NCBI GenBank assembly: GCA_021803085.1
Contig: JAJZMD010000146.1
Coordinates: 1-64,000 of the forward strand
Length of the DNA stretch: 64,000 nt
Origin: Actinomycetes bacterium
GTDB lineage: Bacteria > Actinomycetota > Acidimicrobiia > Acidimicrobiales > RAAP-2
Direction of reading: 5' to 3'
This document shows positions 14,550 to 45,466 of this stretch, piece by piece; position 1 is the first letter of the stretch; each line of letters starts with the position of its first letter. Made by a program: the position numbers and the translations under genes. The notes under the pieces are model-generated. The model had not been told where the DNA came from, did no database searches, and saw nothing but the letters and a program-made list of their open reading frames with translations.

Positions 14550-14554
14550 CGGCA

Positions 14555-15490: not shown

Positions 15491-17228
<1,738 letters not shown>

Positions 17229-17247
17229 CGGTCACCCGTCGACGCTG

Positions 17248-18087
17248 ATGGGACCGCGCGAAGACCTCGAAGCGAGGATCGCGGCGCTGGCGCGCACCGG
17301 GGACATCGAGGTGATCCCCATGAAGAGCGTGCAGGAGCAGCTGGCGTTGATCCCGAAGGAGACCACGATCGCCGTCACCTGCTCGGCCAAGTTCGGGATC
17401 CAGCGGACGCTCGACTACGCCGAGTCGCTCACGCAGGCCGGTCACCGGGTCCGTCCCCACCTCGCCGCACGCCAGGTGCCGGACAAGGCGTACCTTGCTG
17501 AGGTCGTCGAGAAGCTCCAGCGGATCGGCGTGAAGGACCTGTACGTGATCGGGGGTGACGCAGAGGAGCCCGAGGGGAGCTACACGTCTGCCGCGGAGCT
17601 CATCGAGGACCTCTCGACGATGGACCACGGGTTCACCCTCAGCGTCGGCTGCTACCCCGAGGGTCACCCGAAGATCTCCGACGAGGCGCTGTTCGAGGCG
17701 CTGCAGCAGAAGCAGCCGCACGCGAGCTTCATGGTCAACCAACTCTGCTTCGACCCGAAGGTGCTCGTCTCCTGGCTCTCGTCGATGCGGGAAGCGGGGA
17801 TCACGCTGCCGCTCCGCATGGGGCTCGCACCGCCGATCAGCCCGGCCAAGCTCCTCGATCTCTCGCTGAGGATCGGCGTGGGGACCTCGGTCCGGTACCT
17901 GTCCAAGCAGCACGGCGTCGTCGGAAGCCTCCTGCGGGGGAGGTTCTACAAGCCCGAGAAGCTCCTCGGTCAGCTGGGCGAGGCGCTCGTCTCACCTGGG
18001 ATGCACATCGACGGGCTCCACATCTTCTCCTTCAACCAGGTCCAGGCGACCGTGGAATGGCAGCGGAGGGTCGGCGGCTCGCGCTGA
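17248..18087 (+). CDS. metF: Methylenetetrahydrofolate reductase family protein
   Basis: This protein of about 279 aa belongs to the MTHFR TIM-barrel family; VIGGDAEEPEG carries the conserved Asp that contacts flavin/folate, and IEVIP near residue 18 aligns with the catalytic Glu strand. Next to the O-demethylase it would run from 5-methyl- to 5,10-methylene-tetrahydrofolate, the pairing known for LigM systems. The protein is shorter and more divergent at the N-terminus than Escherichia coli MetF. Start choice is uncertain: ATG 17248 gives the family N-terminus but lacks a ribosome-binding site; TTG 17209 would overlap the upstream gene. Confidence 0.78.
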   Translation: MGPREDLEARIAALARTGDIEVIPMKSVQEQLALIPKETTIAVTCSAKFGIQRTLDYAESLTQAGHRVRPHLAARQVPDKAYLAEVVEKLQRIGVKDLYVIGGDAEEPEGSYTSAAELIEDLSTMDHGFTLSVGCYPEGHPKISDEALFEALQQKQPHASFMVNQLCFDPKVLVSWLSSMREAGITLPLRMGLAPPISPAKLLDLSLRIGVGTSVRYLSKQHGVVGSLLRGRFYKPEKLLGQLGEALVSPGMHIDGLHIFSFNQVQATVEWQRRVGGSR

Positions 18088-24321: not shown

Positions 24322-25680
24322 ATGAGAGATAGGGCGGCACACGTGAAGAGCAACATGAGAAGAAAAGGAGAGATGCACATGCTTCATCGTTGGTCGAGGG
24401 CGGGGAGACCCGCAGCCCTCGTCGCAGCTGCGCTCGGGCTCGTGCTCGGGCTCCTCGGAGGGAGCGCGGGGATCGCCGGGGCTGCGTTCAAGTCCCCGAG
24501 CACATACCCGGCCTACGTGGGCGGTCACGGCAAGGCGAACCCGAAGCTCTCGCCCATCACCATCGGCGTGGTGAACCAGCAGACAGCGCCCGCCGCCCCG
24601 GCCCCCGCGTGGACGACAGGTGCCAAGATCGGCGTGACATACGTCAACCAGCACACGGGAGGCATCGACGGGCACCCCTTGAAAGCCGTCTACTGCACCA
24701 TCCCGACAACAGTGGGGGCCGCCACGAGGTGCGGGCAGGAGTTCGCCGACAACCACGCGATCTCCGCGGTCCTGGTCGGCGCGGTCGACGACGGCAACCA
24801 GCCGCTCGAGTCCGCGCTCGCGCCCGCGAAGAAGCCGACGTTCTTCGCCGTGTCGCTCAGCTCGGTGGACGAGCACGACCCCTACGGGTTCATCCTCTAC
24901 AACACAGCCACCCAGGTCGAGGCCCCGATGGCGAGCGTCGCCAGGAACCTGCACATGAAGAGCATCTCGCTCGTCTACCCGTCCAACATCGCGGGCAACG
25001 TGTACCAGGCGGGCGTGGTGTACGCCGGGCTGAAGTACGTCGGCATCAAGACGATCTACAAGGTGGGCGTCACATCGGCCGAGACGAACCTCTCCGCGCC
25101 CTTCGAGGCAGCTCACGTGGGCCACACGACACTGCTCATCCTGGTGAACAGCGGTGGCCCGCTCTGCTCGGACACCTACCTCACCCTCAAGTCCCTCGGC
25201 GTCGCCACAAGCCAGAGGGTCCTCGTCAACGTGCCCTGCGACACGCCGACAGTCGCCAAGGCCGACGGCGGCAAGCTGCCGCACGACTGGTACTACCTGA
25301 CCGCCAACCCGCTGCCCGGCTCGCCGACACCGGCCGTCCCGGCAATGGAGAAGGTGTTCAGCCTGTACGGCAAGGGCCCGGTCGCGTTCAACGCCTGGGC
25401 AGCCGACGCGTTCGGTCAGGTGGTGACGGTGGCCAAGCTCGACACCGAGCTGCTGAAGGCCCACAAGAAGGTCGACTCGGCGACCGTGTTCGCCAAGGCC
25501 AGGGCGTTCAAGGGCCCCGTGGTGCAGGGAGCGCCGCACGTCTCCTGCGGAAGGTTCAAGGGAACGCCGGCGACGTGCAATGACCTGGACCGGTTCTTCC
25601 AGAACACCGCGCCCACAGTGATGAGGCCGCTCGGCACATGGATCGGCCCGCCGAAGGGCTTCAAGCCGCCGCTGTCATAG
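24322..25680 (+). CDS. ABC transporter substrate-binding protein (branched-chain amino acid type)
   Basis: This periplasmic-binding-type protein of about 452 aa has a signal peptide (RPAALVAAALGLVLGLLGGS) ending near AGAA and no clear lipobox. The mature part has the type I fold of LivJ-like proteins: ITIGVVNQQTAPAAPAPAW, GVTYVNQHTGGIDGHPLKAV, and a later VSLSSVDEHDPYG. Two starts compete: ATG 24322 (GGAGGGGG upstream) and ATG 24373 or 24379 (AAGGAG at 24364-24369). Thr is encoded by ACA about 14 times, rare in neighbouring genes, so its codon use differs. It probably sets the importer's specificity; aromatic ligands are possible. Confidence 0.85.
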   Translation: MRDRAAHVKSNMRRKGEMHMLHRWSRAGRPAALVAAALGLVLGLLGGSAGIAGAAFKSPSTYPAYVGGHGKANPKLSPITIGVVNQQTAPAAPAPAWTTGAKIGVTYVNQHTGGIDGHPLKAVYCTIPTTVGAATRCGQEFADNHAISAVLVGAVDDGNQPLESALAPAKKPTFFAVSLSSVDEHDPYGFILYNTATQVEAPMASVARNLHMKSISLVYPSNIAGNVYQAGVVYAGLKYVGIKTIYKVGVTSAETNLSAPFEAAHVGHTTLLILVNSGGPLCSDTYLTLKSLGVATSQRVLVNVPCDTPTVAKADGGKLPHDWYYLTANPLPGSPTPAVPAMEKVFSLYGKGPVAFNAWAADAFGQVVTVAKLDTELLKAHKKVDSATVFAKARAFKGPVVQGAPHVSCGRFKGTPATCNDLDRFFQNTAPTVMRPLGTWIGPPKGFKPPLS

Positions 25681-25703
25681 CGCGACGGCCTCTTTCCTCC
25701 CGC

Positions 25704-25743
25704 CGCCGCAGCGGCCCCGGTCCGCCCGGGGTCGGCTGCGGCG
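25704..25743. terminator. Long GC-rich hairpin downstream of the substrate-binding protein gene
   Basis: Arms 25704-25712 and 25735-25743 pair perfectly over nine bases (CGCCGCAGC with GCTGCGGCG). An inner pair (25715-25720 with 25726-25731) extends the stem. It starts 24 bp after the stop codon and is likely the importer operon terminator; no T-run is seen. Confidence 0.6.
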
Positions 25744-25760
25744 CCGGGGGGGGTCGCCCA

Positions 25761-25786
25761 CATCGCGACCTGACATCGCGACCTGA
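25761..25786. repeat. 13-bp tandem repeat, two units
   Basis: CATCGCGACCTGA occurs twice back to back in the gap between the hairpin and the first E1 alpha gene. Confidence 0.8.
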
Positions 25787-25838
25787 CCCAGACCCGCGCT
25801 CTCCGGGTGGAGAGCCTCTCGAGGAGGGAGTCTCAGCA

Positions 25839-26894
25839 GTGGCAAATGCCAACCCGACGGACGGGAGCGCACCCGCGGCGCTCGGCGCCGAGCGTCTCGC
25901 GTGGATGTACACCCAGATGTACCGCATCCGTGAGTTCGAAGAGCGCGTGAAGTCGACCTTCACCGAGCATCCCGGCATCCTCCGGGGCCACACCCACCTC
26001 GCCGACGGCGCCGAGGCGTCGATCGTCGGGTCGGTCGCAGCGTTGGCACCGGACGACCAGATCGTCACGACCTACCGGTGCCACGGCTACCCGATCGCCC
26101 TCGGGACCGACATGAAGCTCATGATGGCCGAGATCTACGGCAAGGCCACGGGGCTGTGCGGCGGCCTCGGCGGGTCGATGCACCTCTACGACGTCGCCCG
26201 CGGCTTCCTCGGGGGCTCGGGGATCGTCGCCCAGGCCATCCCGCACGCGACCGGGGCCGCCTGGGCTGCCCAGATCCGCCGCCGCGGCCAGGTGGTCGTC
26301 TGCTTCTTCGGTGACGGCGCGAGCAAGCAGGGGGCATTCCACGAGTCGCTCAACATCGCGTCCGTCTGGAAGCTGCCGATCGTGTACGTGATGGAGAACA
26401 ACCACTACCAGGCCTCCACCCGCACCGACCAGGAGGACGCCAACGCCGCCCATGGCGAGCCCCTGTCGACGAAGGCCAAGGCCTACTCGATGGAGGGGGT
26501 CACGGTGGACGGCGCCGACCCCGTGGCCGTGCACGCGACGCTGGCCGACGCGCTCGCACGTGCACGCTCCGGCACGGGCCCGACGCTCGTCGAGTCGCTC
26601 GTCTACCGCCTTTCCGCCCACGGCAACCTGATCGCCCCGCCCGGGGTGCCCCTCAACTACCCCGAGCACGAGGCGATCGCCATCTTCGGCAACCGGGACG
26701 AGTACGAGGCCGCCCTGCGGGGCGACCCGGTCCCGCGCTTCCGCCACCAGCTCGTCACCGAAGGGACCCTGTCCGCCGCGGACGCCGACGCGATCGAGCA
26801 GGCGGCCCGTGAAGAGGTCGACGAGGCGCAGCGCTTCGCCCTCGACAGCCCGTGGCCGGCCCCCGACAGCGGCCTCGACTACGTCTACGCATGA
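25839..26894 (+). CDS. TPP-dependent 2-oxoacid/acetoin dehydrogenase E1 alpha subunit (first pair)
   Basis: This 351-aa protein is an E1 alpha (AcoA/PdhA type). The thiamine pyrophosphate motif runs from GDGASKQGAFHESLN to the closing NN of VMENN. Other family stretches are RIREFEERV at the start and GGLGGSMHLYDVARGFLGG. It would work with the beta subunit gene that follows 64 bp later. GTG 25839 has GAGGAGGGAG eight bases upstream. No E2 or E3 gene is in the window, so the acyl acceptor chain must be elsewhere, or the enzyme acts differently. Substrate unknown. Confidence 0.87.
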   Translation: MANANPTDGSAPAALGAERLAWMYTQMYRIREFEERVKSTFTEHPGILRGHTHLADGAEASIVGSVAALAPDDQIVTTYRCHGYPIALGTDMKLMMAEIYGKATGLCGGLGGSMHLYDVARGFLGGSGIVAQAIPHATGAAWAAQIRRRGQVVVCFFGDGASKQGAFHESLNIASVWKLPIVYVMENNHYQASTRTDQEDANAAHGEPLSTKAKAYSMEGVTVDGADPVAVHATLADALARARSGTGPTLVESLVYRLSAHGNLIAPPGVPLNYPEHEAIAIFGNRDEYEAALRGDPVPRFRHQLVTEGTLSAADADAIEQAAREEVDEAQRFALDSPWPAPDSGLDYVYA

Positions 26895-26917
26895 GCGGCC
26901 GTCTACGCATGAGCGGC
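26882..26917. repeat. 18-bp tandem duplication containing a stop codon
   Basis: CGTCTACGCATGAGCGGC occurs twice. The first copy holds the last codons (VYA) and TGA stop of the first E1 alpha gene; the second repeats them in the untranslated gap before the E1 beta gene. Confidence 0.9.
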
Positions 26918-26958
26918 GCCCAGCTCTCGGTCCAGCTCTTCAGCAGGGAGGAAAGCCA

Positions 26959-27939
26959 ATGTCGCACGTGATCCCGTACATCGCGGCCATCCAGGAAGCC
27001 ATCAGAGAGGAGATGGAGCGCGACGATCGCGTCCTGTACTTCGGGCAGAACATGGCGACGTCGCCCGAGGACCCGTTCCTGAAGCAGTTCGGTCCGGACC
27101 GGGTCCGGGTCACGCCGATCTCCGAGACGGCCGAGATCGGTATTGCGACGGGCGCGGCCGTGGCCGGCTACCGGCCGGTCGTCGAGCTCTACATGGCCGA
27201 GTTCCTCTTGGTGGCGACCGACCAGGTCGTGAACGAGGGCACGCGGTTCCACTTCATGTCCAAGGGGCAGGTGTCGGTCCCGATGGTGATGGTGGCGGGC
27301 TACGGCTTCACCGCAGGGTGGGCGGGCCAGCACACCGGGTCGATCTACGGGATGTTCATGGGAGTGCCGGGCTTGAAGGTCGCCCTGCCCTCGACGCCGG
27401 CCGACGCCAAGGGGCTCATGACGACGGCGATCCGAGACGACAACCCGGTCCTCTTCTTCCAGAACTACCTCCTGCTCCTCGACGAGGGCGAGGTGCCCGA
27501 CGGCGAGCACGCCGTCCCCTTCGGCGTGGCGGACGTGAAGCGGGCGGGCAGCGACCTCACGCTCGTGGCAACCGGGTACGCCGTCCGCACCGCGCTCGGA
27601 GCCGCCGAGTCGCTCGCTCGCCGAGGGGTGAGCGTGGAGGTGATCGACCCCCGTACGATCGCCCCCCTCGACGTCGACACGATCCTCTCCTCGGTCGCCC
27701 GCACCGGCCACCTCGTCTTGGTCGACCAGGCGACCCGGCACTCCTCGGTGGCGGCCGTCATCGCGGCCGAGGTCGCAGAGCTGGGTTTCTCTTCGCTCGA
27801 GGCTCCGATCTCGTTGGTCACCGCGCTCGACTCCTCCATCGCCTACAGCAAGCCGGTCGAGGAGTTCGTCCTGCCCGACGAGCACAAGGTCGTAAAGGCC
27901 GTGGAGGAGTCGCTCGGGCTGGCCCCGGCCTCGGCCTGA
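26959..27939 (+). CDS. TPP-dependent dehydrogenase E1 beta subunit (first pair)
   Basis: This 326-aa transketolase-like protein has the beta-subunit features RVTPISETAEIGIATGAAVAG, GQHTGSIYGMFMGVPGLKV and a C-terminal transketolase domain (VIDPRTIAPLDVDTI). It pairs with the alpha subunit upstream. ATG 26959 follows GGGAGGAAAG. The next gene, a second alpha subunit, starts 1 bp after its stop, so both pairs are likely on one transcript. Confidence 0.88.
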   Translation: MSHVIPYIAAIQEAIREEMERDDRVLYFGQNMATSPEDPFLKQFGPDRVRVTPISETAEIGIATGAAVAGYRPVVELYMAEFLLVATDQVVNEGTRFHFMSKGQVSVPMVMVAGYGFTAGWAGQHTGSIYGMFMGVPGLKVALPSTPADAKGLMTTAIRDDNPVLFFQNYLLLLDEGEVPDGEHAVPFGVADVKRAGSDLTLVATGYAVRTALGAAESLARRGVSVEVIDPRTIAPLDVDTILSSVARTGHLVLVDQATRHSSVAAVIAAEVAELGFSSLEAPISLVTALDSSIAYSKPVEEFVLPDEHKVVKAVEESLGLAPASA

Positions 27940-27940
27940 G

Positions 27941-28939
27941 GTGGCCGGCGGCGCGGCGGGGGACCCCGGGAGCGGCGGGGGGCTCGACGCCGCCGTCGCC
28001 GAGCGTCTGCTCGAGACGATGTGGCGGATCCGCGCCTTCGAGGAGCGCCTCGAGCCGCTGAAACGCTCGAGCATGGTCCTCGGGCTCACCCACCTGAGCA
28101 TCGGCCAGGAGGCCGTGGCAGCAGGGGTGTGCACCCAGTTGCGAGACGACGAGCCCGTCTACTCCAACCACCGGGCGAACGGCCATGCCCTCGCCAAGGG
28201 CGTCGACATGGGCAGGCTCTTGGCCGAGCTCATGGGGCGCGCGGAGGGGTGCTGCCGAGGGCTCGGCGGCTCGATGCACGTGGTGGACGTCGCCCACGGC
28301 TTCCTCGGCGCGACGGGGGTGGTCGGGGGCAACCTCCCCTTCGCCGTCGGCTCCGCCCTGGCGGGCCGCCTCCTCGGGCAAGACCGGCCGGCCGTCGTCT
28401 TCTTCGGCGACGGCGCCGCCCAGACCGGGATCTTCGCCGAGACCCTGAACCTGGCCAGCCTGTGGCAGGTCCCGGTGGTGCTCGTCTGCGAGAACAACGG
28501 CTTCGCCGAGTTCACCCCCCGCTCGGCCCACACCCGGGTGGAGCGGGTGAGCGACCTCGCGGCGCCGTTCCGTGTCCCCGCGGCGACCGTCGACGGCAAC
28601 GACGTCGCCCAGGTGCACGCCGCCTTCGCCCACGCGCTCGCCCTGGCCCGCGCGGGCAGCGGCCCCTTCCTCCTCGAGTGCCTCACCCACCGGCTCTCGG
28701 GACACTACGTCGGCGACCCCGGCGGCTACCGAGCCGCCGTGGAGGACGAAGCGTGGCGGGCCAGGGACCCCATCGAGCGCCTCGTCCGGCAGGCTGCCGC
28801 AGCCGGCTGGTTCGACGCGGAGCGTTCGCGCGCCGCCGAGGCGGCGGCGCGAGACGAGGTGGAGGCGGCGGTCGCCTTCGCGGCCTCGAGCCCGTTCCCC
28901 GACCTGGGCCTTCCCGCCGAGCTCACCTACGCGCGCTGA
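27941..28939 (+). CDS. TPP-dependent dehydrogenase E1 alpha subunit (second pair)
   Basis: This 332-aa protein is another E1 alpha: RIRAFEERLEPL, GGSMHVVDVAHGFLGATG, and the TPP motif from GDGAAQTGIFAETLN to ENN. It differs clearly from the first alpha subunit, so this is not a recent duplication; the two pairs probably act on different substrates. GTG 27941 lies 1 bp after the beta stop. Its own stop overlaps the next start (TGATG). Confidence 0.88.
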   Translation: MAGGAAGDPGSGGGLDAAVAERLLETMWRIRAFEERLEPLKRSSMVLGLTHLSIGQEAVAAGVCTQLRDDEPVYSNHRANGHALAKGVDMGRLLAELMGRAEGCCRGLGGSMHVVDVAHGFLGATGVVGGNLPFAVGSALAGRLLGQDRPAVVFFGDGAAQTGIFAETLNLASLWQVPVVLVCENNGFAEFTPRSAHTRVERVSDLAAPFRVPAATVDGNDVAQVHAAFAHALALARAGSGPFLLECLTHRLSGHYVGDPGGYRAAVEDEAWRARDPIERLVRQAAAAGWFDAERSRAAEAAARDEVEAAVAFAASSPFPDLGLPAELTYAR

Positions 28940-29913
28940 TGGCCGAGACGACCTACGCCGCCACCATCGCCGCCACCCTCGCGGCGGCGATGCGCGCGGA
29001 CGAGCGCGTCGTGGTCCTGGGCGAGGACGTGGCGCTCGGCGGCCCCTACCTCACGACGAAGGGGCTCGCCGAGGAGTTCGGAACTGCCCGCGTCGTGAAC
29101 ACCCCCATCAGCGAAGCGGCGATCTGCGGGGTCGCCATCGGCGCGGCGCAGTCCGGCCTGCGCCCGGTCGTGGAGATCATGTTCATCGACTTCATCGGGC
29201 TTGCCCTCGACCAGCTCGTGAACGGCGCCGCGAAAGCCCACTTCATGTCGGGAGGGCAGCTCGACGTGCCGATGGTCCTGCGTACCCAGGGAGGGGCGGG
29301 CCAGCGCGGCGCCGCGCAGCACTCCCAGAGCCTCGAGAGCTGGCTGACCCACGTGCCAGGGCTGAAGGTCGTCGTCCCCTCGAGCGCCCGAGAGGTGGCC
29401 GCGCTCCTGCCGAGCGCCATCGCCGACCCGAACCCCGTCGTCGTCGTCGAGTCCAAGACCCTGTACTTCCGGCACGAGACGCTGCCCGACGAAGGCGTCT
29501 CCCCCGAGCCGCTCGGGCGGGCGCGGGTGGTACGGCGAGGAGACGACGTGACCATCGTCGCCACCTCGAAGATGGTGAACGAGGCGATCGAGGCCGCCGC
29601 CCACCTCTCCGAACACGGCGTCGAAGCCGAGGTGATCGATCCGCGCACGCTGGTCCCCCTCGACCTCCCGACGATCGCCGCCTCGGTCGCCCGTACGGGA
29701 CGGCTGGTCGTCGCCCATGAGGCCGTGCAGCACGGCGGCTTCGGGGCGGAGATCGCTGCGGAGGTCCAGGAGGCGTGCTTCTACGACCTCGACGCCCCGA
29801 TCGTCCGCGTCGGCGCGCCGTTCACCCCGGTGCCGCTCAGCCCGCCGCTCGAGGACGCCTACGTGCCCGGCGCCGCCGAGATCCTCGACGCCGTCCGCCG
29901 GGTGCTCGGTTGA
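28939..29913 (+). CDS. TPP-dependent dehydrogenase E1 beta subunit (second pair)
   Basis: This 324-aa beta subunit has VVVLGEDVALGGPYLTTKGL, RVVNTPISEAAICGVAIGAA, QRGAAQHSQSLESWLTHVPG and VIDPRTLVPLDLPTI, closer to pyruvate/acetoin dehydrogenase beta chains than the first pair. ATG 28939 overlaps the alpha stop. About 200 bp without a convincing gene follow before the cupin gene. Confidence 0.88.
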   Translation: MAETTYAATIAATLAAAMRADERVVVLGEDVALGGPYLTTKGLAEEFGTARVVNTPISEAAICGVAIGAAQSGLRPVVEIMFIDFIGLALDQLVNGAAKAHFMSGGQLDVPMVLRTQGGAGQRGAAQHSQSLESWLTHVPGLKVVVPSSAREVAALLPSAIADPNPVVVVESKTLYFRHETLPDEGVSPEPLGRARVVRRGDDVTIVATSKMVNEAIEAAAHLSEHGVEAEVIDPRTLVPLDLPTIAASVARTGRLVVAHEAVQHGGFGAEIAAEVQEACFYDLDAPIVRVGAPFTPVPLSPPLEDAYVPGAAEILDAVRRVLG

Positions 29914-30747: not shown

Positions 30748-31674
30748 TCAGAACAGCGGCCAGGGTCCGATCGACAGCGTCGTGTGCTGCATGACCCCGG
30801 CGAGCACGGCGTTGCGCACCAGCCATACGTCGGTGACTGGCCCGACGCCGCCGGGTACCGGGGTGAGCGCCTCGGCTCGCTGCGCCACGCTGTCGAAATC
30901 GAGGTCCCCGACGAGGTGGACCCGGCCGTCCTCTCCCTCGACGGGGTTGATCCCGACGTCGATCGCGATCACGCCCTCCTTCACCATGTCGCCGGTGACG
31001 AGCCCCGGCGAGCCGGCGGCAACGATCAGCACGTCCGCCTGGCGGGTGAACTCGGCCAGCCTCCCCGCCTCTGAGGCGTGCTCGTCGCAGCTCACGACGA
31101 TGGCTCCCCGGTCCAAGGCGAGCCAGACGGCGGGCTTGCCGACGTTGTGGCTCCTTCCGACGATCACGACCGTCTTGCCCCTCAAGGCCGTGCTGGGGTC
31201 ACGACCCGTCTGGCGGAAGTAGTCGTCGAGCAGCCAGAAGCAGCTGGCCGGCGTGGAGGGGACGAACCGGGGGGTGCCGCGTGCCATCAGCCCGGCATTG
31301 GCGGGATGGACCGCCTCGACGTCCTTCAGCGGGTCGAGCGTCGGGTACAGCTCCACCTCGGAGAGCTGGGCGGGAAGGGGGCGGAGCACGAGGATCCCAC
31401 TGATCCTCGGGTCCGCGTTCAGCTTGCCGATGGTCGCAAGCGCTTCGGCGAGCTCCGCGTCGTGCGGCAGGCGCTCGGGCTGGAACCGGCACCCCACGTT
31501 CTCCGCCAGCCGGCGAAGCCGGCGCTCGTAGGCGTGGGCGGCGTAATCCTCGCCCACCAGCACGCTCGCCAGCCCGGGGTCGACCTTCGACGAGCGGACG
31601 GCGGCGAGCTCGCCGAGCAGCCGGGCACGAAGGTCCCTCGACACGGCTGTTCCGTCGATGATCGTCGCTTCCAT
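30748..31674 (-). CDS. FolD-like methylenetetrahydrofolate dehydrogenase, catalytic residues replaced
   Basis: This 308-aa protein has the FolD fold signatures: KTVVIVGRSHNVGKPAVWL, VIAIDVGINPVEGE and TPVPGGVGPVTDVWL. The catalytic set of bifunctional FolD is altered. After Tyr49 the expected Lys is Leu53 (YERRL), the Gln of VQLPLP is Leu97 (ILVLRPLP), and the KDVDG Asp is Glu120 (KDVEA). In characterised FolD these residues are needed for cyclohydrolase, and Lys also for normal dehydrogenase activity. This may be a dehydrogenase-only or repurposed enzyme. It is downstream of fhs on the same strand, 71 bp away. ATG 31674 follows TTGAGG. Confidence 0.82.
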   Translation of the reverse strand: MEATIIDGTAVSRDLRARLLGELAAVRSSKVDPGLASVLVGEDYAAHAYERRLRRLAENVGCRFQPERLPHDAELAEALATIGKLNADPRISGILVLRPLPAQLSEVELYPTLDPLKDVEAVHPANAGLMARGTPRFVPSTPASCFWLLDDYFRQTGRDPSTALRGKTVVIVGRSHNVGKPAVWLALDRGAIVVSCDEHASEAGRLAEFTRQADVLIVAAGSPGLVTGDMVKEGVIAIDVGINPVEGEDGRVHLVGDLDFDSVAQRAEALTPVPGGVGPVTDVWLVRNAVLAGVMQHTTLSIGPWPLF

Positions 31675-31745
31675 GACCTCAACCTTCCTCAGCCTTCCGC
31701 GCCCCGCGACGACGGCGCGACGGCGGGCTCGGACACGCCGCCGAG

Positions 31746-33443
31746 CTAGGACAGCCCGACGATCTGGCCGTCGGCGTCGAGATCGATGGAGAAGGCAGCG
31801 GGGTTGCTCCCGAGCCCCGGCATGGTGCGCATGTCCCCGCAGATCGGGTACACGAAGCCCGCCCCGACCGAGGCGCGCACTTCCCGGACCGGCAGGGTCC
31901 ACCCCGTCGGGGCGCCCTTCAACGCGGGGTCGGACGAGATCGACAGGTGGGTCTTCGCGATGCACACCGGCAGGTTCCCGAACCCGGCGGCCTCGTAGCG
32001 GTCGAGGGCACGGGCCGCCGCCGGGGCGTACGACACGTCAGCGGCGCCGTACACCTTGGTCGCCACCGTGCGGATCTTGTCCCGGAGCGGCATGTCGTCG
32101 GGGTAGAGCATGTGGAACTGGGAGGGTTCGTCTGCCGCCTCGACGACCGCCTCGGCCAGCTCGGTGGCACCGGCGCCGCCCTTGGCGAAGTGATGGCAGA
32201 CGGCGCTCCTCGCCCCGCTCGACGCCGCGATCTCTGCGACGGCGTCCCACTCGGAGGGGTGGTCGGTCGGGAAGGCGTTGATGGCGACGACCGGGGTGAC
32301 CCCGTGGATCTTGATGTTCTCGATCTGCTTCCGAAGGTTGGACCCGCCCGCGTGCACCTCGTCGGGGTTCTCGGCGAGGAGGGCCTCGGGGAGGGGTCTT
32401 CCTGCGACGACGCGGTGGTTGCCCGTGTGGGTCTTCAACGCCCGGACGGTCGCCACGACGACGGCGGCGTCGGGGATGAGGCCCGAGTACCGGCACTTGA
32501 TGTTGAAGAAGCGCTCGGCCCCCATGTCGGCACCGAAGCCGGCCTCGGTGATGAGGAAGTCCCCGCTCCTTATGCCGATCTGGTCGGCCAGGATCGAGCT
32601 GTTGCCGTGGGCGATGTTGCCGAACGGACCGGCGTGGACCAGGACCGGGGTGTTCTCCAAGGTCTGGAGGAGGTTCGGCTTGAGGGCGTCGCGCATCAAG
32701 ACCGCCATCGCGCCCGCCGCCTTCAGCTCCTCCGCGGTGACCGGGGCGCCCTCGCCCGTGTATCCGACGACGATGCGCCCGAGGCGGGACCGGAGGTCCG
32801 AGAGCGAGGTGGCGAGGGCGAAGATCGCCATCACCTCGGACGCCGCGGTGATGTCGAACCCGGTCTGGCGCGTGACGCCGTCTTCATGCGGGCCGAGGCC
32901 GATCACGATGTTGCGGAGGGAGCGGTCGTTCACGTCGAGGACGCGCCGCCAGGTGATGTCGTCCAGCGCGAGCCCGAGGGCATTGCCCTGGAACAGGTGG
33001 TTGTCGATGATCGCGGACAGGAGGTTGTGGGCCTCGGTGACGGCGTGGAAGTCGCCGGTGAGGTGGAGGTTCAGGATCTCCATCGGCACGACCTGGCTGT
33101 ACCCCCCGCCCGCCGCCCCTCCTTTGATCCCGAAGGTCGGTCCCATCGACGGCTGGCGAATCGCGACCGTCGCTTGCCTCCCGATGTGGCGCATCGCCTG
33201 GCCCAGCCCCACGGTCGTGGTCGTCTTCCCCTCGCCGAGCGGCGTCGGGGTGATCGCCGACACCACCACGTACTTCGCCTTCGGGCGCTCCGAGAGCTCT
33301 TCGACCGCCTCGAGCTTGATCTTGGCGACCGCAGATCCATAGGGCTCCAAGAGGTGCTCACCGATCCCCATCGACGCTGCGATCTCGTTCAACGGCTTCA
33401 AGGAGGCGGCGCGTGCGATGCCCAGGTCGGATGGGAAGGCCAT
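31746..33443 (-). CDS. fhs: Formate-tetrahydrofolate ligase
   Basis: This 565-aa enzyme interconverts formate + ATP + tetrahydrofolate with 10-formyl-tetrahydrofolate. The P-loop-like TPTPLGEGKTTTTVGL and the family stretches TGDFHAVTEAHNLLSA, TEAGFGADMGAERFFNIKC and HTGNHRVVAGRPLP are intact, and the length is normal. Catabolically it can run backwards, making ATP and formate from methyl groups delivered by the O-demethylase. ATG 33443 gives the usual N-terminus, but no ribosome-binding site is evident. It is divergent from the molybdenum hydroxylase gene. Confidence 0.93.
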   Translation of the reverse strand: MAFPSDLGIARAASLKPLNEIAASMGIGEHLLEPYGSAVAKIKLEAVEELSERPKAKYVVVSAITPTPLGEGKTTTTVGLGQAMRHIGRQATVAIRQPSMGPTFGIKGGAAGGGYSQVVPMEILNLHLTGDFHAVTEAHNLLSAIIDNHLFQGNALGLALDDITWRRVLDVNDRSLRNIVIGLGPHEDGVTRQTGFDITAASEVMAIFALATSLSDLRSRLGRIVVGYTGEGAPVTAEELKAAGAMAVLMRDALKPNLLQTLENTPVLVHAGPFGNIAHGNSSILADQIGIRSGDFLITEAGFGADMGAERFFNIKCRYSGLIPDAAVVVATVRALKTHTGNHRVVAGRPLPEALLAENPDEVHAGGSNLRKQIENIKIHGVTPVVAINAFPTDHPSEWDAVAEIAASSGARSAVCHHFAKGGAGATELAEAVVEAADEPSQFHMLYPDDMPLRDKIRTVATKVYGAADVSYAPAAARALDRYEAAGFGNLPVCIAKTHLSISSDPALKGAPTGWTLPVREVRASVGAGFVYPICGDMRTMPGLGSNPAAFSIDLDADGQIVGLS

Positions 33444-38176: not shown

Positions 38177-40015
38177 TCACGAGCTCCCCGCCGCCCGTTC
38201 GAGGACGATCACGAGTCCCTCGTCGCCGTCGACGCGGACGAGGTCCCCGGTCCGGATCTTCTGGGTAGCAGTCCCGGTCCCGACGACCGCAGGCATGCCG
38301 TACTCTCGGGCCACGATCGCCGCGTGCGACATGATGCCGCCGATGTCGGAGACGGCGGCCTTGATCTTCCCGAACACCGGCCCCCAGCTCGGGGCGGTCA
38401 CTGGACAGACGAGGATCTCGCCGGCCTGGATCTGGCCGACCTCGTTCACGCTCATGAGCACTCGGGCCCGGCCCTCGACGACGCCGCCCGAGGCGGCGAA
38501 GCCCTCGACGCGGTCGTCGGGCGTCTCTGAGGCCCGCGCCCACCCTCTGATGGTCTCGCCGGTGATCCCCCAGAGCATCTTGACGGCAGGGTCGTTGAGC
38601 GCTTCGGGCTCGGGCCCCAGCGCAGGCGGCGCGGGCCACCGCGCCAGCACCTCGAGCATCGCCTTGCGCTCGGCGACGAGCGGCTTCAGGTGCGTCGCCC
38701 CCGTGGGCGGCGCGCCGGCTGCCCAGGCGAGCATCACGTCGGCGAGTGCCTGATCGACCTCGTAGTGCTGGAGATGGAACACGTCCTCTACGTCGTCGAG
38801 AACGCCGAAGCGGAGGAGGAGCTGTCCGAACTCGCGGATCTTGGCGAAGAACTGGGTCGTGAACCAGTGCTCGCAGTAGAACTTGTGCCCTTCGACGAAG
38901 GGGAAGACGAGCCTGCACAGCCCGAGCATCTGGTCGAAGGCGCCCTTCTCCTGCTCGCTGGCGAGCAGCTCGCGGTAGCGCTGCGCCACCTGCTCACGCT
39001 CGACTTGCAGCTTCTCGATCGGGCGACCGAGGTCCTCACCGCTGCGCACCTGCCGGACGTAGCGGGCCAGGGCGGAGAAAGGTACCGCAGGGTCGTCCTT
39101 CCAGCTCCGGTGGTGATGGTAGAAGCCGTCCCCGGTGGACACGTAGAACCAGGGGACCGAGGCACGCTCGTACTCGGCCAGCCACTTCCTCCCGGCCTCG
39201 CCGGAGCGCTCGAGCGCCGCCAGCACGGCGGAGGGGGCGTCGCCCTCGGCGAATGCGCCGTCCACCCCGAGGGAGACCGCGACCTTCGCCAGCTGCTTCA
39301 GCTGCTCGTCGGGCTGGTACATGATGACGTCGATGCCGGCGACCATCCGGGCGACCGCCTGCACGGGGATCTCAGGGAACGCCTTCTGGAGGAACTCGAA
39401 GAAGACGACGTACGCGCCGAAGCCGAGCATGAGCAGCTCGGTGTGGTGGTTCCACATCTTGGAGAAGAGGTCGATGCAGCGGTGATAGCGCTCGCGAACG
39501 AGATGGTTCGAGGCGTAGCCCCTCGAGCCGGTCACGACGGACGCGTCCTCGAACTCCCCGAGCTCGGGCACCTCGATCGCCTCGATCTCGTCGATGAGGC
39601 TCTTCACCCGGTCCGTCCACTCGTCGTAGAGCCTGTCCCAGTTCTCGTAGTAGAAGCCTGCACGCTCCTGGAAGAGGGCGAGCCGCCGGCTCACCTCCTC
39701 TGGATCGGAGACCGGGTTGGCCGTGATGTAGACCCTTCCGTTCACGATCCGGTGCTCGATGCCGAGGGTCGTCGGGAAGACGAAGATCCTGGCGGTGTTG
39801 GCCCCGATCGCCGTATAGGGGATCTCGGCGGTGATGGCGTCGAACGCGGGCATCGGCTCGGGGAAGTGCATGGAGTTGTAGAACCAGAACCGCTCGTCGT
39901 CGCCCGGCTGGAACCTCGTGAAGAAGGGGTACATGGAGCGCCAGTTCTCCGCGCCGGGGACGTCTTTCACATCCGAGGGAAGGGGGAACGGGCCCTCTCT
40001 CTCGCTCGCTGCCAT
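38177..40015 (-). CDS. PEP-synthase-like phosphotransferase large subunit (first copy; AcvA/HpeH/phenylphosphate synthase type)
   Basis: This 612-aa protein has a long novel N-terminal region (about 1-500) and a C-terminal PEP-utilising mobile domain with the phosphohistidine motif GGIMSHAAIVAREYGMPAVV, His near 564. This is the architecture of the phosphohistidine subunit of phenylphosphate synthase and of the kinases that phosphorylate 4-hydroxyaryl ketones. It has no ATP-grasp domain, so it needs a partner such as the gene at 43878. It is a clear paralogue of the gene at 42008 (shared GPFPLPS..DVPGAE and KFYCEHWFTTQFFAK). ATG 40015 follows AAAGGAG. The second copy may widen substrate range (inference). 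Confidence 0.8.
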   Translation of the reverse strand: MAASEREGPFPLPSDVKDVPGAENWRSMYPFFTRFQPGDDERFWFYNSMHFPEPMPAFDAITAEIPYTAIGANTARIFVFPTTLGIEHRIVNGRVYITANPVSDPEEVSRRLALFQERAGFYYENWDRLYDEWTDRVKSLIDEIEAIEVPELGEFEDASVVTGSRGYASNHLVRERYHRCIDLFSKMWNHHTELLMLGFGAYVVFFEFLQKAFPEIPVQAVARMVAGIDVIMYQPDEQLKQLAKVAVSLGVDGAFAEGDAPSAVLAALERSGEAGRKWLAEYERASVPWFYVSTGDGFYHHHRSWKDDPAVPFSALARYVRQVRSGEDLGRPIEKLQVEREQVAQRYRELLASEQEKGAFDQMLGLCRLVFPFVEGHKFYCEHWFTTQFFAKIREFGQLLLRFGVLDDVEDVFHLQHYEVDQALADVMLAWAAGAPPTGATHLKPLVAERKAMLEVLARWPAPPALGPEPEALNDPAVKMLWGITGETIRGWARASETPDDRVEGFAASGGVVEGRARVLMSVNEVGQIQAGEILVCPVTAPSWGPVFGKIKAAVSDIGGIMSHAAIVAREYGMPAVVGTGTATQKIRTGDLVRVDGDEGLVIVLERAAGSS

Positions 40016-40133
40016 CGCCGGCTCCTTTGTCTCGCTCGACTCGAGCTCTCCGCGTGACGTCTCCTCGCGCCCGCCGCTCGCGAAAGATCGCCGTCAGCCT
40101 TGCACACATCGACCGCCCGGAGTCAGGCTGGCA

Positions 40134-40169
40134 CCGGGCGCGCCGGACGGACCGGGCGCGCCGGACGGA
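40134..40169. repeat. 18-bp tandem repeat, two units, in a divergent promoter region
   Basis: CCGGGCGCGCCGGACGGA occurs twice back to back between the divergent phosphotransferase subunit and SnoaL-like genes; a shorter repeat of GGCTGCACCC follows. Confidence 0.85.
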
Positions 40170-40239
40170 CCGCACCCGGCAGCGAGCCGGCTGCACCCGG
40201 CTGCACCCGACGGAAAGACCGAGGAGACGAGGAGACGGC

Positions 40240-40848
40240 GTGCAGCAAGATGAAGACCGCGCCGTCGTCCGGGACCTGGTCGAGGAGTGGGCGATCTGGC
40301 GCGACGCGATGGACTGGGACCGCTTCCGGCAGGTGTGGCACCAGCCGGGCCGCATGAACGCCACGTGGTTCCAGGGCTCTGCGGACGATTTCATCGCGGT
40401 GAGCCGGGAGGCCGCCGCCCGCGGCGTGAGCATCCTCCATTTCCTCGGAGGCAGCGCGGTCGACGTCGCAGGTGCGCACGCCCTCGCCCAGACGAAGATG
40501 ACGATCTCCCAGCGTGCGTCCGTCGACGGGGTGGAGTGCGACGTGGTCTGCACCGGCCGGTTCTACGATTTCTTCGCCGTGCGGGAAGGCCGGTGGGGCC
40601 TCGTGGAGCGCCAGCCCATCTACGAGAAGGACCGGATCGACCCGGTCGACTCGTCGGCGAGCCTCGAGCTCGACCGCGAGCTCCTCGACGCCTTTCCCCA
40701 GGGCTATCGGCACCTCGCCTATCTTCAGACCAGGATCGGCTACGCGGTGAAGCCGGACATGCCCGGCCTCATCGGCCCGGCAGTCGAGAGCCTCTACGAG
40801 CGGGGGGCGAGATGGCTCGCCGGTGACGAGTCCGCCGCGGACGGCTGA
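40240..40848 (+). CDS. SnoaL/NTF2-like family protein
   Basis: This 202-aa protein has the N-terminal helix pattern DRAVVRDLVEEWAIWRDAMD, then WHQPGRMNATWFQGSADDFI and the beta strands expected for a SnoaL-like cone fold. Such proteins include dehydratases, hydroxylases and accessory proteins; no catalytic set can be assigned. GTG 40240 has a GGAGACG ribosome-binding site. The alcohol dehydrogenase gene starts 1 bp after its stop, so the two are probably co-translated. It is divergent from the first phosphotransferase subunit. Confidence 0.72.
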   Translation: MQQDEDRAVVRDLVEEWAIWRDAMDWDRFRQVWHQPGRMNATWFQGSADDFIAVSREAAARGVSILHFLGGSAVDVAGAHALAQTKMTISQRASVDGVECDVVCTGRFYDFFAVREGRWGLVERQPIYEKDRIDPVDSSASLELDRELLDAFPQGYRHLAYLQTRIGYAVKPDMPGLIGPAVESLYERGARWLAGDESAADG

Positions 40849-40849
40849 G

Positions 40850-41872
40850 ATGCGCGCTGCGTTGCTCGCGAGCTACCACAGCCCGCTCGAGCTCACCGAG
40901 CTCCCCGAGCCCCAGCCGGAGCGGGCCGGCGACGTCGTGGTCCGGGTCGGCGGCGCCGGCGTGTGCGCGACCGACCTCCACTCGATCGACGGGTGGATGG
41001 AAGAGGCCGGCGTGCGGCCTCCGCGCGTGCTCGGTCACGAGAACGCCGGTTGGGTCGAGGCGGTCGGCGAGGGCGTCTCGTCCGTGCGCGTGGGAGACCC
41101 GGTCGTCGTCTACCCCGCCTACAGCTGCGGACTGTGCCTCCCCTGCCGCCGCGGCGACGACATGCGGTGCGTGAACGGGCGGTTCACCGGACTGTCGGCG
41201 GACGGCGGGTTCGCCGAGCACCTGCTCACGACCGAGCGCTCCCTGGTCAAGCTCGCCCCCGGGATCGACCCTGCCGACGTGGCCCCCCACGCCGACGCCG
41301 GCATCACCGCCTACCACGCCGTGCGCAAGGTCTGTCACCTCGCACGCCCCGGCTCTGTCTCGGTGGTGATCGGGATCGGCGGGCTCGGCCACATCGGGCT
41401 CCAGCTCCTGCGAGAGCTGGGCTCCGGCACCGTCGTCGCGATCGACGCCGACGAGCGGTGCCGCAGGCTTGCCGACGAGCTCGGAGCCGACCACGTCGCC
41501 GGAGCCGGGCAGGTCGTCGAGGCGGCACGCGACCTCACCGGCGGGCGGGGTGCCGACGTCGTCATCGATTTCGTCGGCTCGAGCTCGACGCACGCCGACT
41601 CGCTCGCCGCCCTGGCCCGGGGAGGCACGTACTCGGTCGTCGGCTACGGCGGGACGTTGAGCGCCCCTTCCATCTCCCTGGTCGCCAACGAGCAGTCGGT
41701 CGTCGCCAACCTCGTGGGCACCTGGCCAGACCTGTACGAGCTGCTGGAGCTCCACTCGGCCGGCAAGGTGGTCCTGCGCACGGAGCGTCACCACCTCGAG
41801 GAGGTGAACGACGTGCTCGAGATGCTCCGCCGAGGGGAGGTCTTCGGGCGCGCCGTCCTCGTCCCGGGCTGA
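40850..41872 (+). CDS. Zinc-dependent NAD(P) alcohol dehydrogenase (MDR family)
   Basis: This 340-aa protein has the catalytic zinc motif VCATDLHSIDG, GHENAGWV, the structural zinc lobe CGLCLPCRRGDDMRC, and the Rossmann motif VIGIGGLGHIGLQLL. It probably oxidises an alcohol on an aromatic side chain. ATG 40850 lies 2 bp after the preceding stop; GTG 40823, inside the preceding gene, is an alternative. It precedes the core phosphotransferase/carboxylase operon by 135 bp and may belong to it. Confidence 0.84.
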   Translation: MRAALLASYHSPLELTELPEPQPERAGDVVVRVGGAGVCATDLHSIDGWMEEAGVRPPRVLGHENAGWVEAVGEGVSSVRVGDPVVVYPAYSCGLCLPCRRGDDMRCVNGRFTGLSADGGFAEHLLTTERSLVKLAPGIDPADVAPHADAGITAYHAVRKVCHLARPGSVSVVIGIGGLGHIGLQLLRELGSGTVVAIDADERCRRLADELGADHVAGAGQVVEAARDLTGGRGADVVIDFVGSSSTHADSLAALARGGTYSVVGYGGTLSAPSISLVANEQSVVANLVGTWPDLYELLELHSAGKVVLRTERHHLEEVNDVLEMLRRGEVFGRAVLVPG

Positions 41873-42007
41873 GGGCGCCCCGAGAGGTCGCTCGGCCGCC
41901 CCCCCGGTCCGAGCCGGTCCACATCGCGCGTGGTTGCGCCCCGCGCGGCACCATGCGATGATCCGGACGGCCGGGGTCGGGTGAGCCCATGGCCAGGGGG
42001 AGCACTC

Positions 42008-43822
42008 GTGTCGGAGCGTCGAGGTCCGTTCCCGTTGCCGTCGGAGATCACCGACGTGCCCGGAGCCGAGGGATGGGCGTCGATGTACGCCCCCTTCACT
42101 CGCTTCGGACCGCAAGACGACGCGAAGTTCTGGTTCTACAACGCCACGCACTTCCCCGAGCCCCTGCCCGCCTTCGACGGGATCAGCTCCGAGGTCGCGT
42201 ACAGCGCGATCGGCGCGAACACCGCGCGCATCTTCGTCTTCCCCGCCACGCTCGGCATCGAGCACCGGATCGTGAACGGCCGCGTGTACCTGGCGGCGAA
42301 CCCGGTCACCGATCCCGAGGAGGTCGGACGGCGCCTCGAGATCTTCCAGCGTCGGGCCGGCTACTACTACGAGCACTGGGACCGCCTCTACGGAGAGTGG
42401 AAGCAGCGGATGCAGGCAGCCATCGACGAGCTCGAGTCGATCGACGTCCCCGAGCTCGGCGACGTCGACGACGAGGAGGTCGTGACCACGGCGCGGGGGT
42501 ACGCCTCGAACCACCTCGTGCGCGAACGGTTCCACCGCTGCGTCGACCTGTACTCGATCGTCTGGAACCACCACATCGAATTCGTCATGCTCGCGTTCGG
42601 CGCCTACGTCGTGTTCTCAGAGTTCTTGACGAAGGCATTCCCCGAGATCCCCGAGCAGTCGATCGCCCGGATGGTCGCCGGGATCGATGTGATCATGTAC
42701 CGACCCGACGAGGAGCTGAAGCGCCTCGCGCGCCTCGCCGTCTCCCTCGGCGTCGACGACCTGCTGACCGACGGCGCCGAGCCCCGGACCGTGTTCGAGG
42801 GGCTCGCCCTGCGAGGCGAGGCCGGAGCCACCTGGCTTGCGGAGTGGGAGAGGAGCTCGGTCCCGTGGTTCCACGTCTCCACCGGCGACGGCCTGTACCA
42901 CCACCACCGGAGCTGGCGAGACGACCCCCGAGTCCCCCTCGCGGGGCTCTCTCGCTACGTCTCGCAGGTGCGCGCAGGCGACGACCTGCGCCGCCCGACC
43001 GAGCGGCTGAAGGAAGAGCGCGAGGAGGTCGCGAGGCGCTACCGCGCGCTGCTCGACGCCGACGAGGAGCGTGCCGCCTTCGACCAGATGCTCGGCCTCT
43101 GCCGGACGACGTTCCCCTACATCGAGGAGCACAAGTTCTACTGCGAGCACTGGTTCACGACCCAGTTCTTCGCCAAGATGCGCGAATTCGGGCAGCTTCT
43201 CACCCGCTTCGGCGTGCTCGACGAGGCCGAGGACGTCTTCCAGCTGCAGCACTACGAGATCGACCAGCAGCTCGCCAACGTGATGCTCGCCTGGTCTGCG
43301 GGTTCGTCGCCGGTCGGGACCGACGAGGTCAAGGCGATCGTGGCCGACCGCAAGGCGATGCTCGCAGTGCTCGCCACCTGGTCTCCCCCGCCCGCGCTCG
43401 GGCCAGAGCCCGAGGCGCTCAACGACCCGGCCGTGAAGCTCTTGTGGGGCATCACCGCCAAGACGATCCGCACCTGGGCCGAGGCAGCGGACCCCAGCTC
43501 GGCACGGATCCAGGGCTTCGCCGCCTCGCCGGGCGTCGTCGAGGGCGTCGCCCGCGTGCTTGCGAGCGTGAACGAGATCGACCAGATCCTGAGCGGCGAG
43601 ATCCTCGTCTGCCCGGTCACCTCGCCCAGCTGGGGGCCCGTGTTCGGCAAGATCAAGGCGGCAGTGTCGGACAGCGGCGGGATGATGTCCCACGCGGCGA
43701 TCGTGGCGCGCGAGTACGGGATGCCGGCCGTCGTCGGCACCGGCACGGCCACCCGTCGCATCAAGACCGGGGACCGGCTCCGGGTGGACGGCGATCAAGG
43801 CGTCGTGGTTATCCTGTCCTGA
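42008..43822 (+). CDS. PEP-synthase-like phosphotransferase large subunit (second copy; AcvA/HpeH/phenylphosphate synthase type)
   Basis: This 604-aa protein starts RGPFPLPSEITDVPGAEGW and ends with the PEP-utilising mobile domain GGMMSHAAIVAREYGMPAVV, phosphohistidine near 562. In the related kinases this subunit receives the beta phosphoryl group of ATP from the ATP-grasp subunit and passes it to the phenolic hydroxyl of the substrate. The ATP-grasp partner lies 55 bp downstream, followed by biotin carboxylase genes and a phosphatase, which supports an aryl ketone kinase over anaerobic phenol activation. GTG 42008 has GGGGGAG six bases upstream. Confidence 0.84.
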   Translation: MSERRGPFPLPSEITDVPGAEGWASMYAPFTRFGPQDDAKFWFYNATHFPEPLPAFDGISSEVAYSAIGANTARIFVFPATLGIEHRIVNGRVYLAANPVTDPEEVGRRLEIFQRRAGYYYEHWDRLYGEWKQRMQAAIDELESIDVPELGDVDDEEVVTTARGYASNHLVRERFHRCVDLYSIVWNHHIEFVMLAFGAYVVFSEFLTKAFPEIPEQSIARMVAGIDVIMYRPDEELKRLARLAVSLGVDDLLTDGAEPRTVFEGLALRGEAGATWLAEWERSSVPWFHVSTGDGLYHHHRSWRDDPRVPLAGLSRYVSQVRAGDDLRRPTERLKEEREEVARRYRALLDADEERAAFDQMLGLCRTTFPYIEEHKFYCEHWFTTQFFAKMREFGQLLTRFGVLDEAEDVFQLQHYEIDQQLANVMLAWSAGSSPVGTDEVKAIVADRKAMLAVLATWSPPPALGPEPEALNDPAVKLLWGITAKTIRTWAEAADPSSARIQGFAASPGVVEGVARVLASVNEIDQILSGEILVCPVTSPSWGPVFGKIKAAVSDSGGMMSHAAIVAREYGMPAVVGTGTATRRIKTGDRLRVDGDQGVVVILS

Positions 43823-43863
43823 CGGCGCCAGCGGGGGACCGGGGCAGAGGGAGAGCAGCCGCG

Positions 43864-43881
43864 ATGCGTGTGCTGTCATGA
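43864..43881 (+). promoter_or_regulatory. Leader mini-cistron (MRVLS) coupled to the next gene
   Basis: ATG CGT GTG CTG TCA TGA encodes five residues, and its stop overlaps the ATG of the ATP-grasp gene (ATGA). The best ribosome-binding site, AGAGGGAGAG at about 43845-43854, is spaced for this mini-cistron and is too far from the real gene start, so reinitiation may be used. Confidence 0.4.
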
Positions 43882-44936: not shown

Positions 44937-45466
44937 TCCTCTCCCGAGAGGACGTCTCGGACATCTTGAGGGTCCTCGACGCGACCGACTACGACGAGCT
45001 CCACCTCGAGACGGACCGCTTCGTGCTCCGCCTCCGGCGGACGCCGGGGGGCTGGACCGAGGAGCATGAGGTGCGCGGCGAGGCGCGCCTCCTCGCCGCC
45101 CCGGCCGCAGCCGAGCTGCAGAGCCACGACCAACGGGACTCCGGCGACGCAGGCGAGGACGGACGGCGGGAGCGCCTGCATCCTGTGCGGGCACCGCTCC
45201 CAGGTGTCTTCTACCGCGCCCCGAAGCCGGGCGCGCCGCCGTTCGTGGACGTCGGCGACCACGTCGAGGCCGACACGGTCGTCGCCATCTTGGAGACGAT
45301 GAAGCTCATGAACCCCGTACGAGCGGGCACCGCCGGCACCGTCGCCGACTTCGCCGTCGCCGACAGCGCGCCCGCCGTGCAGGGCGCCGTGCTGCTGTGG
45401 CTGGAGCCGGGCGGGCTCGGGCCGGGCGAGCTCGGGCCGGGCGAGCTCGGGCCGGGCGAGCCGTGA
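44933..45466 (+). CDS. Biotin carboxyl carrier protein
   Basis: This 177-aa protein has an N-terminal acetyl-CoA-carboxylase-type carrier segment (DVSDILRVLDATDYDELHLE), a variable linker, and a biotinyl domain with the target Lys at 124 in ETMKLMN. Two glycine/proline-rich stretches flank the domain. The C-terminus is extended by three GELGP repeats encoded by a 15-bp repeat. GTG 44933 overlaps the preceding stop and its stop overlaps the biotin carboxylase start. It carries CO2 from the biotin carboxylase to the carboxyltransferase. Confidence 0.87.
   Translation: MILSREDVSDILRVLDATDYDELHLETDRFVLRLRRTPGGWTEEHEVRGEARLLAAPAAAELQSHDQRDSGDAGEDGRRERLHPVRAPLPGVFYRAPKPGAPPFVDVGDHVEADTVVAILETMKLMNPVRAGTAGTVADFAVADSAPAVQGAVLLWLEPGGLGPGELGPGELGPGEP
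45416..45460. repeat. 15-bp tandem repeat, three units, encoding the biotin carrier tail
   Basis: CTCGGGCCGGGCGAG is repeated three times exactly, in frame (LGPGE units), ending directly at the GTGA junction with the biotin carboxylase gene. Confidence 0.92.

Follow-up and report, generated by a model that had tools for sequence, protein, structure and literature searches.

FolD is the textbook example of an enzyme that performs two steps, and dehydrogenase-only FolDs that are partnered with the separate cyclohydrolase FchA are already known in clostridia: the FolD of Clostridium perfringens is reportedly (Aluri et al. 2016, cited in PMC7219735) a dehydrogenase only, accompanied by a separate FchA and by Fhs. 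Within the same superfamily, yeast MTD1 (PDB 1EDZ) is a monofunctional, NAD-dependent methylene-THF dehydrogenase. In the human enzyme, Lys56 and Gln100 have been read as substrate-activating and Asp125 as pterin-binding (PMC3368264, PMC6443876), with Asp125 of MTHFD1 contacting the edge of the pterin (PMC6443876). The carolacton-resistance mutants of E. coli FolD have lost the same positions: K54N has about 19% of the dehydrogenase activity left and undetectable cyclohydrolase, Q98H has about 8% and about 1%, respectively, and spontaneous hydrolysis has been proposed to sustain these mutants (PMC5688156).

Here, we describe a FolD variant whose gene follows fhs in the window, i.e. the whole stretch of 64,000 nucleotides that has been analysed; since dehydrogenase-only FolDs with FchA and Fhs are already known, this gene would add a variant of such enzymes.

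30748..31674, minus strand: variant folD, 308 amino acids, domains PF00763 and PF02882, proposed from its sequence to encode a dehydrogenase-only methylene-THF dehydrogenase
31746..33443, minus strand: fhs, formate--tetrahydrofolate ligase (PF01268, 835.6 bits; NF010030 above its cut-off), directly upstream of folD

The open reading frame of the variant runs from the ATG at 31674 to a stop codon that ends at 30748, downstream of fhs and separated from it by 71 nt; the start codon of fhs is inferred, and its open reading frame runs to 33527. Both Pfam domains of the FolD family exceed their gathering scores in the variant (PF00763, 90.9 bits against a cut-off of 32.8; PF02882, 153.1 bits against 27), which places it in the family. 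Its AlphaFold2 model has a mean pLDDT of about 92 (92.2), and the best 50 matches listed by Foldseek are FolD/MTHFD chains only, with TM scores of 0.78-0.87. The variant shares with bifunctional FolD and MTHFD1 (E. coli FolD, human DC301) the two-domain fold, a collinear alignment, and the nucleotide-binding and PVPGGVGP motifs, but it has about 8 additional residues inserted around positions 150-157 and differs from them in the catalytic Lys, Gln and Asp, in the active-site Ser and in the Leu that follows the Gln. It remains below the curated cut-offs of the NCBIfam FolD models (top score 237.6 bits against 396, NF010785), which label relatives of the variant as bifunctional. Yeast MTD1 is a weak match (47.6 bits) and is not closely related, and resembles the variant in the use of NAD that we suspect for the latter.

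The replaced positions are the following:

31516..31518, minus strand: codon 53, Leu for the catalytic Lys (human Lys56, E. coli Lys54)
31384..31386, minus strand: codon 97, Leu for Gln (human Gln100)
31381..31383, minus strand: codon 98, Arg for the Leu that follows the Gln97 position (human Leu101)
31315..31317, minus strand: codon 120, Glu for Asp (human Asp125)
31537..31539, minus strand: codon 46, Ala for an invariant Ser (human Ser49)

The residues by which a bifunctional FolD is recognised are thus replaced in all three motifs: the Lys of YxxxK is Leu53 (YERRL), the Gln of VQLPLP is Leu97 (ILVLRPLP) and the Asp of KDVDG is Glu120 (KDVEA), where a carboxylate is retained at the pterin-binding position. 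An earlier note on this DNA had claimed these three replacements and had proposed a structural alignment as their check; the profile alignments of the variant to solved FolD/MTHFD chains are gap-free and collinear across all three motifs, so that a shifted register that would restore Lys, Gln and Asp is ruled out, and the replacements stand, being kept across the orthologues as well. The equivalent residues of Bombyx MTHFD are numbered identically (Tyr49, Lys53, Gln97, Asp120; PMC6443876). Beyond the three, we have found the changes Ser46→Ala, Leu→Arg98 and Gly121→Ala.

A search of genome contigs has yielded 61 loci, with L052-L092 being orthologues of the variant (41 loci from 40 genomes) at 51-98% identity, under titles that are nearly all Actinomycetota or its subgroups. 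We have compared these 41 sequences with 62 ordinary FolDs; the latter never vary at Lys, Gln and Asp, and the other positions concerned are invariant or nearly so in them. The Lys53 position is occupied by Leu (27), Val (12) or Ile (2), and by Lys in none; the Gln97 position by Leu (40) or Met (1); the Asp120 position by Glu (40) or X (1); the Ser46 position by Ala (37) or Cys (1), with Ser kept in 3; and the Gly121 position by Ala (33), Ser (4) or Gly (4). Arg98 is nearly constant, a few orthologues having Lys or His. Gly173, Gly179, Asp214, Ala219, Gly221, Tyr49, Lys117-Asp118 and the glycines of PVPGGVGP are kept.

A pseudogene or a sequencing error is ruled out by orthologues of 97-98% identity that have the same changes and by the low pairwise dN/dS within the window's subclade (0.10-0.25), which points to strong purifying selection on the variant. 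With four of seven key active-site residues changed, the variant might instead be a non-catalytic relative of FolD, a scaffold or regulator beside Fhs, as the inactive dehydrogenase/cyclohydrolase domain of human MTHFD1L is retained in a protein that has synthetase activity only (PMC6443876); we consider this very improbable, given that the Rossmann glycine motif and the folate-side glycines are invariant in 40 orthologues, that the purifying selection is strong, and that the variant is the sole FolD found in several genomes.

The earlier note had also described the nucleotide-binding motifs as intact, which holds for the glycine motifs; the nucleotide-binding half as a whole is retained with some change: the GRSxxVGxP loop that binds NAD(P) is present (GRSHNVGKP), and Gly173 and Gly179 are invariant in the 41 orthologues, but 30 of the 41 have Asp in place of His197, a residue that is invariant across ordinary FolDs. 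In the window's variant, Asp197-Glu198 stands at the site of the His-Thr/Ser of ordinary FolDs. As Ser197 of MTHFD1 has been reported to hold the 2'-phosphate of NADP (PMC9173628), use of NAD+ by the variant is reasonable to expect from Asp-Glu at position 197, and the variant probably prefers NAD.

With Lys53, Gln97 and the supporting Ser46 gone, the variant is predicted not to hydrolyse methenyl-THF, and the joint loss of Lys and Gln predicts an enzyme that is a dehydrogenase only. We hold it highly probable that the variant descends from FolD and has a single function, as an NAD(P)-dependent 5,10-methylene-THF dehydrogenase that lacks cyclohydrolase activity and serves catabolic one-carbon oxidation, and whose partner in the window has been deleted; the dehydrogenase-only reading is the one best supported. 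The elements read from sequence are the conserved loss of residues, the retained nucleotide site, the pairing of genes, the relic described below and the purifying selection; the activities, the direction of the reaction and the performer of the cyclohydrolase step in the window's genome are what we infer. Since E. coli mutants at Lys or Gln also lose most of their dehydrogenase activity, some compensation in the variant must be assumed; as a speculation, Arg98 and Glu120, both conserved, may bring the dehydrogenase back to efficiency. The E. coli mutants are laboratory-selected single changes with impaired growth, unlike the variant, in which both changes are fixed across a lineage. Carolacton binds the missing Lys, and the variant is predicted to be naturally insensitive to it.

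The main support for the dehydrogenase-only reading is the natural pairing of the variant with FchA or with a second FolD. In our survey of the 40 genomes with the variant, whose counts are uncorrected for phylogeny and many of which are incomplete MAGs, FchA (PF04961) is present in 22 and adjoins a FolD of the variant kind in 11 (G210, G211, G215, G219-G222, G224, G225, G234 and G235; the FchA-adjacent FolD of G225 is a second copy, counted without reading its residues). The second FolD of G224, with Lys→Ile, lies beside an FchA of its own. Nine surveyed genomes have no Lys-bearing FolD that we could find, and FchA is present in eight of them, the exception (G209) being a MAG of 1.8 Mb; comparison of these Lys-less-only genomes with the other variant genomes for the presence of FchA gives a Fisher p of 0.023, with relatedness ignored. 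The pairing is not universal: about nine surveyed genomes, as well as the window's, combine the variant with a canonical FolD and contain neither FchA nor the tandem partner that is described below.

FchA occurs in 117 of 346 genomes of a separately drawn phylum sample, and its presence alone is thus weak evidence; as a proof, it has been dropped (in an order sample, one of the 6 genomes with the variant has FchA, compared with 3 in 192, which is not significant, p 0.12). The adjacency of FchA is specific and is the stronger signal: in the same 346 genomes, FchA adjoins 9 of 26 variants and 0 of the 95 other FolDs listed, these being the best-scoring remainder, of which two have been read (Lys present) and the others classed by score.

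The earlier note had suggested that an altered enzyme beside fhs would be a new variant, but the loss of Lys and Gln is not peculiar to the window's gene and marks an older, FchA-partnered clade. In a second Lys-less clade of Actinomycetota FolDs (L177-L187), FchA lies next to 27 of the 29 members from the 346 genomes; the changes of this clade are K→V, Q→L and L→R at the next residue, with D kept and G→C (MYRGQVEKF, ILPLRPFPE and KDIDCFHP in the 11 members read). The tree unites it with the window's clade (100/98); the two share Arg98, but the second clade has Asp where the window's clade has Glu120. The next branch is possibly formed by three FolDs of other phyla that have Lys→Gln (77/88, not firm). 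In one of these (L097 7537-8834, an Omnitrophica MAG; Lys→Gln, Gln→His, Asp→Glu), an FchA-like open reading frame lies just upstream; FchA is present in one of the two remaining genomes and absent from the other. The grouping of the FchA-partnered second clade with the variant, together with the FchA-like neighbour in Omnitrophica, indicates that the loss of Lys and Gln in the company of FchA is old. Of the two grouped clades, only the window's has Asp→Glu, which is fixed there; the three Lys→Gln FolDs also carry Glu at this position, which leaves more than one order possible for this change. Elsewhere in the tree, on a long branch of its own, is a FolD of Planosporangium flavigriseum (C22; L140 / L147) with Lys→Ile (YVRSIVRA) and with Gln and Asp kept, which lies beside FchA.

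These pairings also bear on whether the variant could still be bifunctional, the roles of Lys and Gln in the cyclohydrolase chemistry having passed to Arg98 and Glu120 or to a group in a new position. Arg98, which hardly varies, occupies the position of human Leu101, itself among the seven key residues, and a dedicated partner gene is absent from some genomes, including the window's; on the other side, FchA or a FolD-like cyclohydrolase occurs repeatedly beside the variant, the same Arg is common to the clade in which FchA is almost always adjacent, and single changes of Lys or Gln abolish or nearly abolish the cyclohydrolase of E. coli FolD. A bifunctional variant thus seems to us quite improbable.

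More unusual than the loss of residues is a FolD-like partner in tandem with the variant, which has been lost in the window. This second gene occurs in eight genomes (G199-G206), between fhs and the variant where the contig includes fhs, and FchA is absent from all eight. Seven of the copies are located as follows:

L053, 7086-7985: tandem partner
L055, 7085-7993: tandem partner
L056, 7088-7966: tandem partner
L057, 2130-3020: tandem partner
L058, 2096-2977: tandem partner
L059, 6858-7730: tandem partner
L060, 1918-2895: tandem partner

The equivalents of Ser46, Tyr49, Lys53, Gln97, Asp120 and Gly121 are retained in all eight partners, and the changes are on the nucleotide side: Gly179→Ala, His197→Asp and Pro142→Ala in 8/8, and Ala219→Asp in 7/8. 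His197→Asp is also found in most variants, so by itself it is no mark of loss. The nucleotide domain is altered at specific residues alone, a full degradation being ruled out by the PF02882 scores of the full-length partners (139-159 bits); these few residues suggest that the partner lacks dehydrogenase function, and an altered use of the cofactor is possible. Its dN/dS of 0.18-0.39 and its seven complete copies free of internal stops indicate purifying selection. In the tree, the partner has a long branch from the ordinary FolDs L025/L029/L136, with which it groups, so that it is a recruited gene; a duplication of the variant is ruled out. The ordinary folD is absent from its place beside purH in G202 (sucC...purH-X-mdh) and in G205, and the variant and the tandem partner are the sole FolDs found in these two genomes.

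Between fhs and folD, the window preserves a trace of this partner:

31696..31728, minus strand: 33-nt relic of a deleted FolD-like partner, 93.9% identical to L053 7548-7580

L053 represents the partner of the window's closest partner-bearing relative. The relic scores 42.8 bits against a maximum of 26.5 in shuffled sequences, and an additional match spans the end of fhs and the start of the tandem gene. In L052, a relative of 98% identity, about 150 nt of the partner are left, with breakpoints that differ from those of the window; the relic and this longer remnant indicate that the partner was deleted recently in the window's lineage.

The bifunctional enzyme may thus have been split between two tandem FolD types after fhs, where the variant would be the dehydrogenase and the recruited partner a cyclohydrolase without dehydrogenase function, which would have replaced FchA and would now be undergoing loss in the window's lineage; on this fuller account, we find ourselves evenly divided. 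In the open-access literature, which was searched for this among other questions, we have come across no account of a pair of FolD-type proteins that share both half-reactions, and the reciprocal split appears to be new. The proposed arrangement, in which a FolD dehydrogenase works with Fhs and a separate cyclohydrolase, is that of Clostridium perfringens, from which the variant differs in its link to demethylation and in one lineage having a FolD-derived partner in place of FchA. A lineage with separated steps, in which the unrelated cyclohydrolase FchA and a second FolD are exchanged as partners, offers a direct way to find out on which residues each half-reaction depends and whether the intermediate needs to be channelled.

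The earlier note had placed the gene in catabolic one-carbon metabolism, which is borne out by fhs and by two further genes of the window, located 13-15 kb from fhs-folD on the opposite strand:

15735..17228, plus strand: ligM, THF-dependent vanillate/3-O-methylgallate O-demethylase (NF047885, 887 bits, above the equivalog cut-off of 580)
17209..18087, plus strand: MetF-like protein (TIGR00676, 64.8 bits, under the equivalog cut-off)

In the proposed route, LigM would transfer the aryl methyl group to THF and be the source of 5-methyl-THF; the MetF-like enzyme would produce methylene-THF, which the variant would convert to methenyl-THF with the formation of NAD(P)H; a separate cyclohydrolase (in relatives, FchA or the FolD-like partner) would yield 10-formyl-THF; and Fhs, in reverse, would release formate and ATP. 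That the flow runs from methylene-THF towards formate, with Fhs yielding ATP, is expected from what is known of the pathway. The oxidation of 5-methyl-THF by the MetF-like protein is proposed by analogy with S6MTHFR of the SYK-6 lignin C1 pathway (PMC12585457), in which LigM and S6MTHFR would feed methylene-THF as the window's LigM and MetF-like protein might; SYK-6 belongs to a different phylum, and the available part of its account (PMC12585457) describes no FolD variant. As for the canonical folD and the separate fchA that the earlier note had suggested looking for, G000, the window's genome, is 93% complete and contains one further FolD, which adjoins purH on another contig and keeps Lys, Gln and Asp; an FchA-type cyclohydrolase (PF04961) is absent from this genome. 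With the partner gone, the canonical FolD or spontaneous hydrolysis probably covers the cyclohydrolase step in this genome.

The common theme of the variant's neighbourhoods is the arrival of methyl groups on THF: L056 has a LigM-like gene that comes after the variant and shares its strand, LigM-like genes lie nearby in L075, L087 and L091, and genes of the sarcosine-oxidase type (soxA/GCV_T type) are found near the variant in L059, L064, L078, L080 and L084; L067, L083 and L085 have what we take to be methylamine-type cluster genes, judging from recognised protein starts and gene order. That the variant acts on another pterin or one-carbon carrier might be read from Asp→Glu, Gly→Ala and Leu→Arg, which line the pterin pocket, and from the change at the pterin-contacting Asp125 position across the whole subclade; we give this hardly any credence, because the neighbours (Fhs, FchA, LigM, MetF-like and GCV_T-type demethylases) are all of the THF type. 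Under the dehydrogenase-only reading, the locus likely belongs to a route that yields ATP and NAD(P)H by burning the methyl groups of lignin aromatics and methylated amines in little-studied Actinomycetota.

Other genes of the window are mentioned here as separate observations. Genes for a PrpF-type isomerase and an amidohydrolase_2 protein (13431-15787) adjoin ligM and are suggestive of the catabolism of aromatic ring-cleavage products. Thiamine-pyrophosphate E1 dehydrogenase subunits are encoded as two successive alpha/beta pairs (25638-29913), which adjoin a branched-chain-type ABC transporter set. Parts resembling PEP synthase occur as separate genes (38177-44936): proteins with the mobile phosphohistidine domain at 38177-40015 on the minus strand and 41930-43822 on the plus strand, and a gene for the ATP-binding PPDK_N domain at 43878-44936 on the plus strand. 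A biotin carboxylase, followed by a PYC_OADA-domain protein with a partial HMGL-like match (45397-48421), forms a pair that resembles a split enzyme of the pyruvate-carboxylase type.
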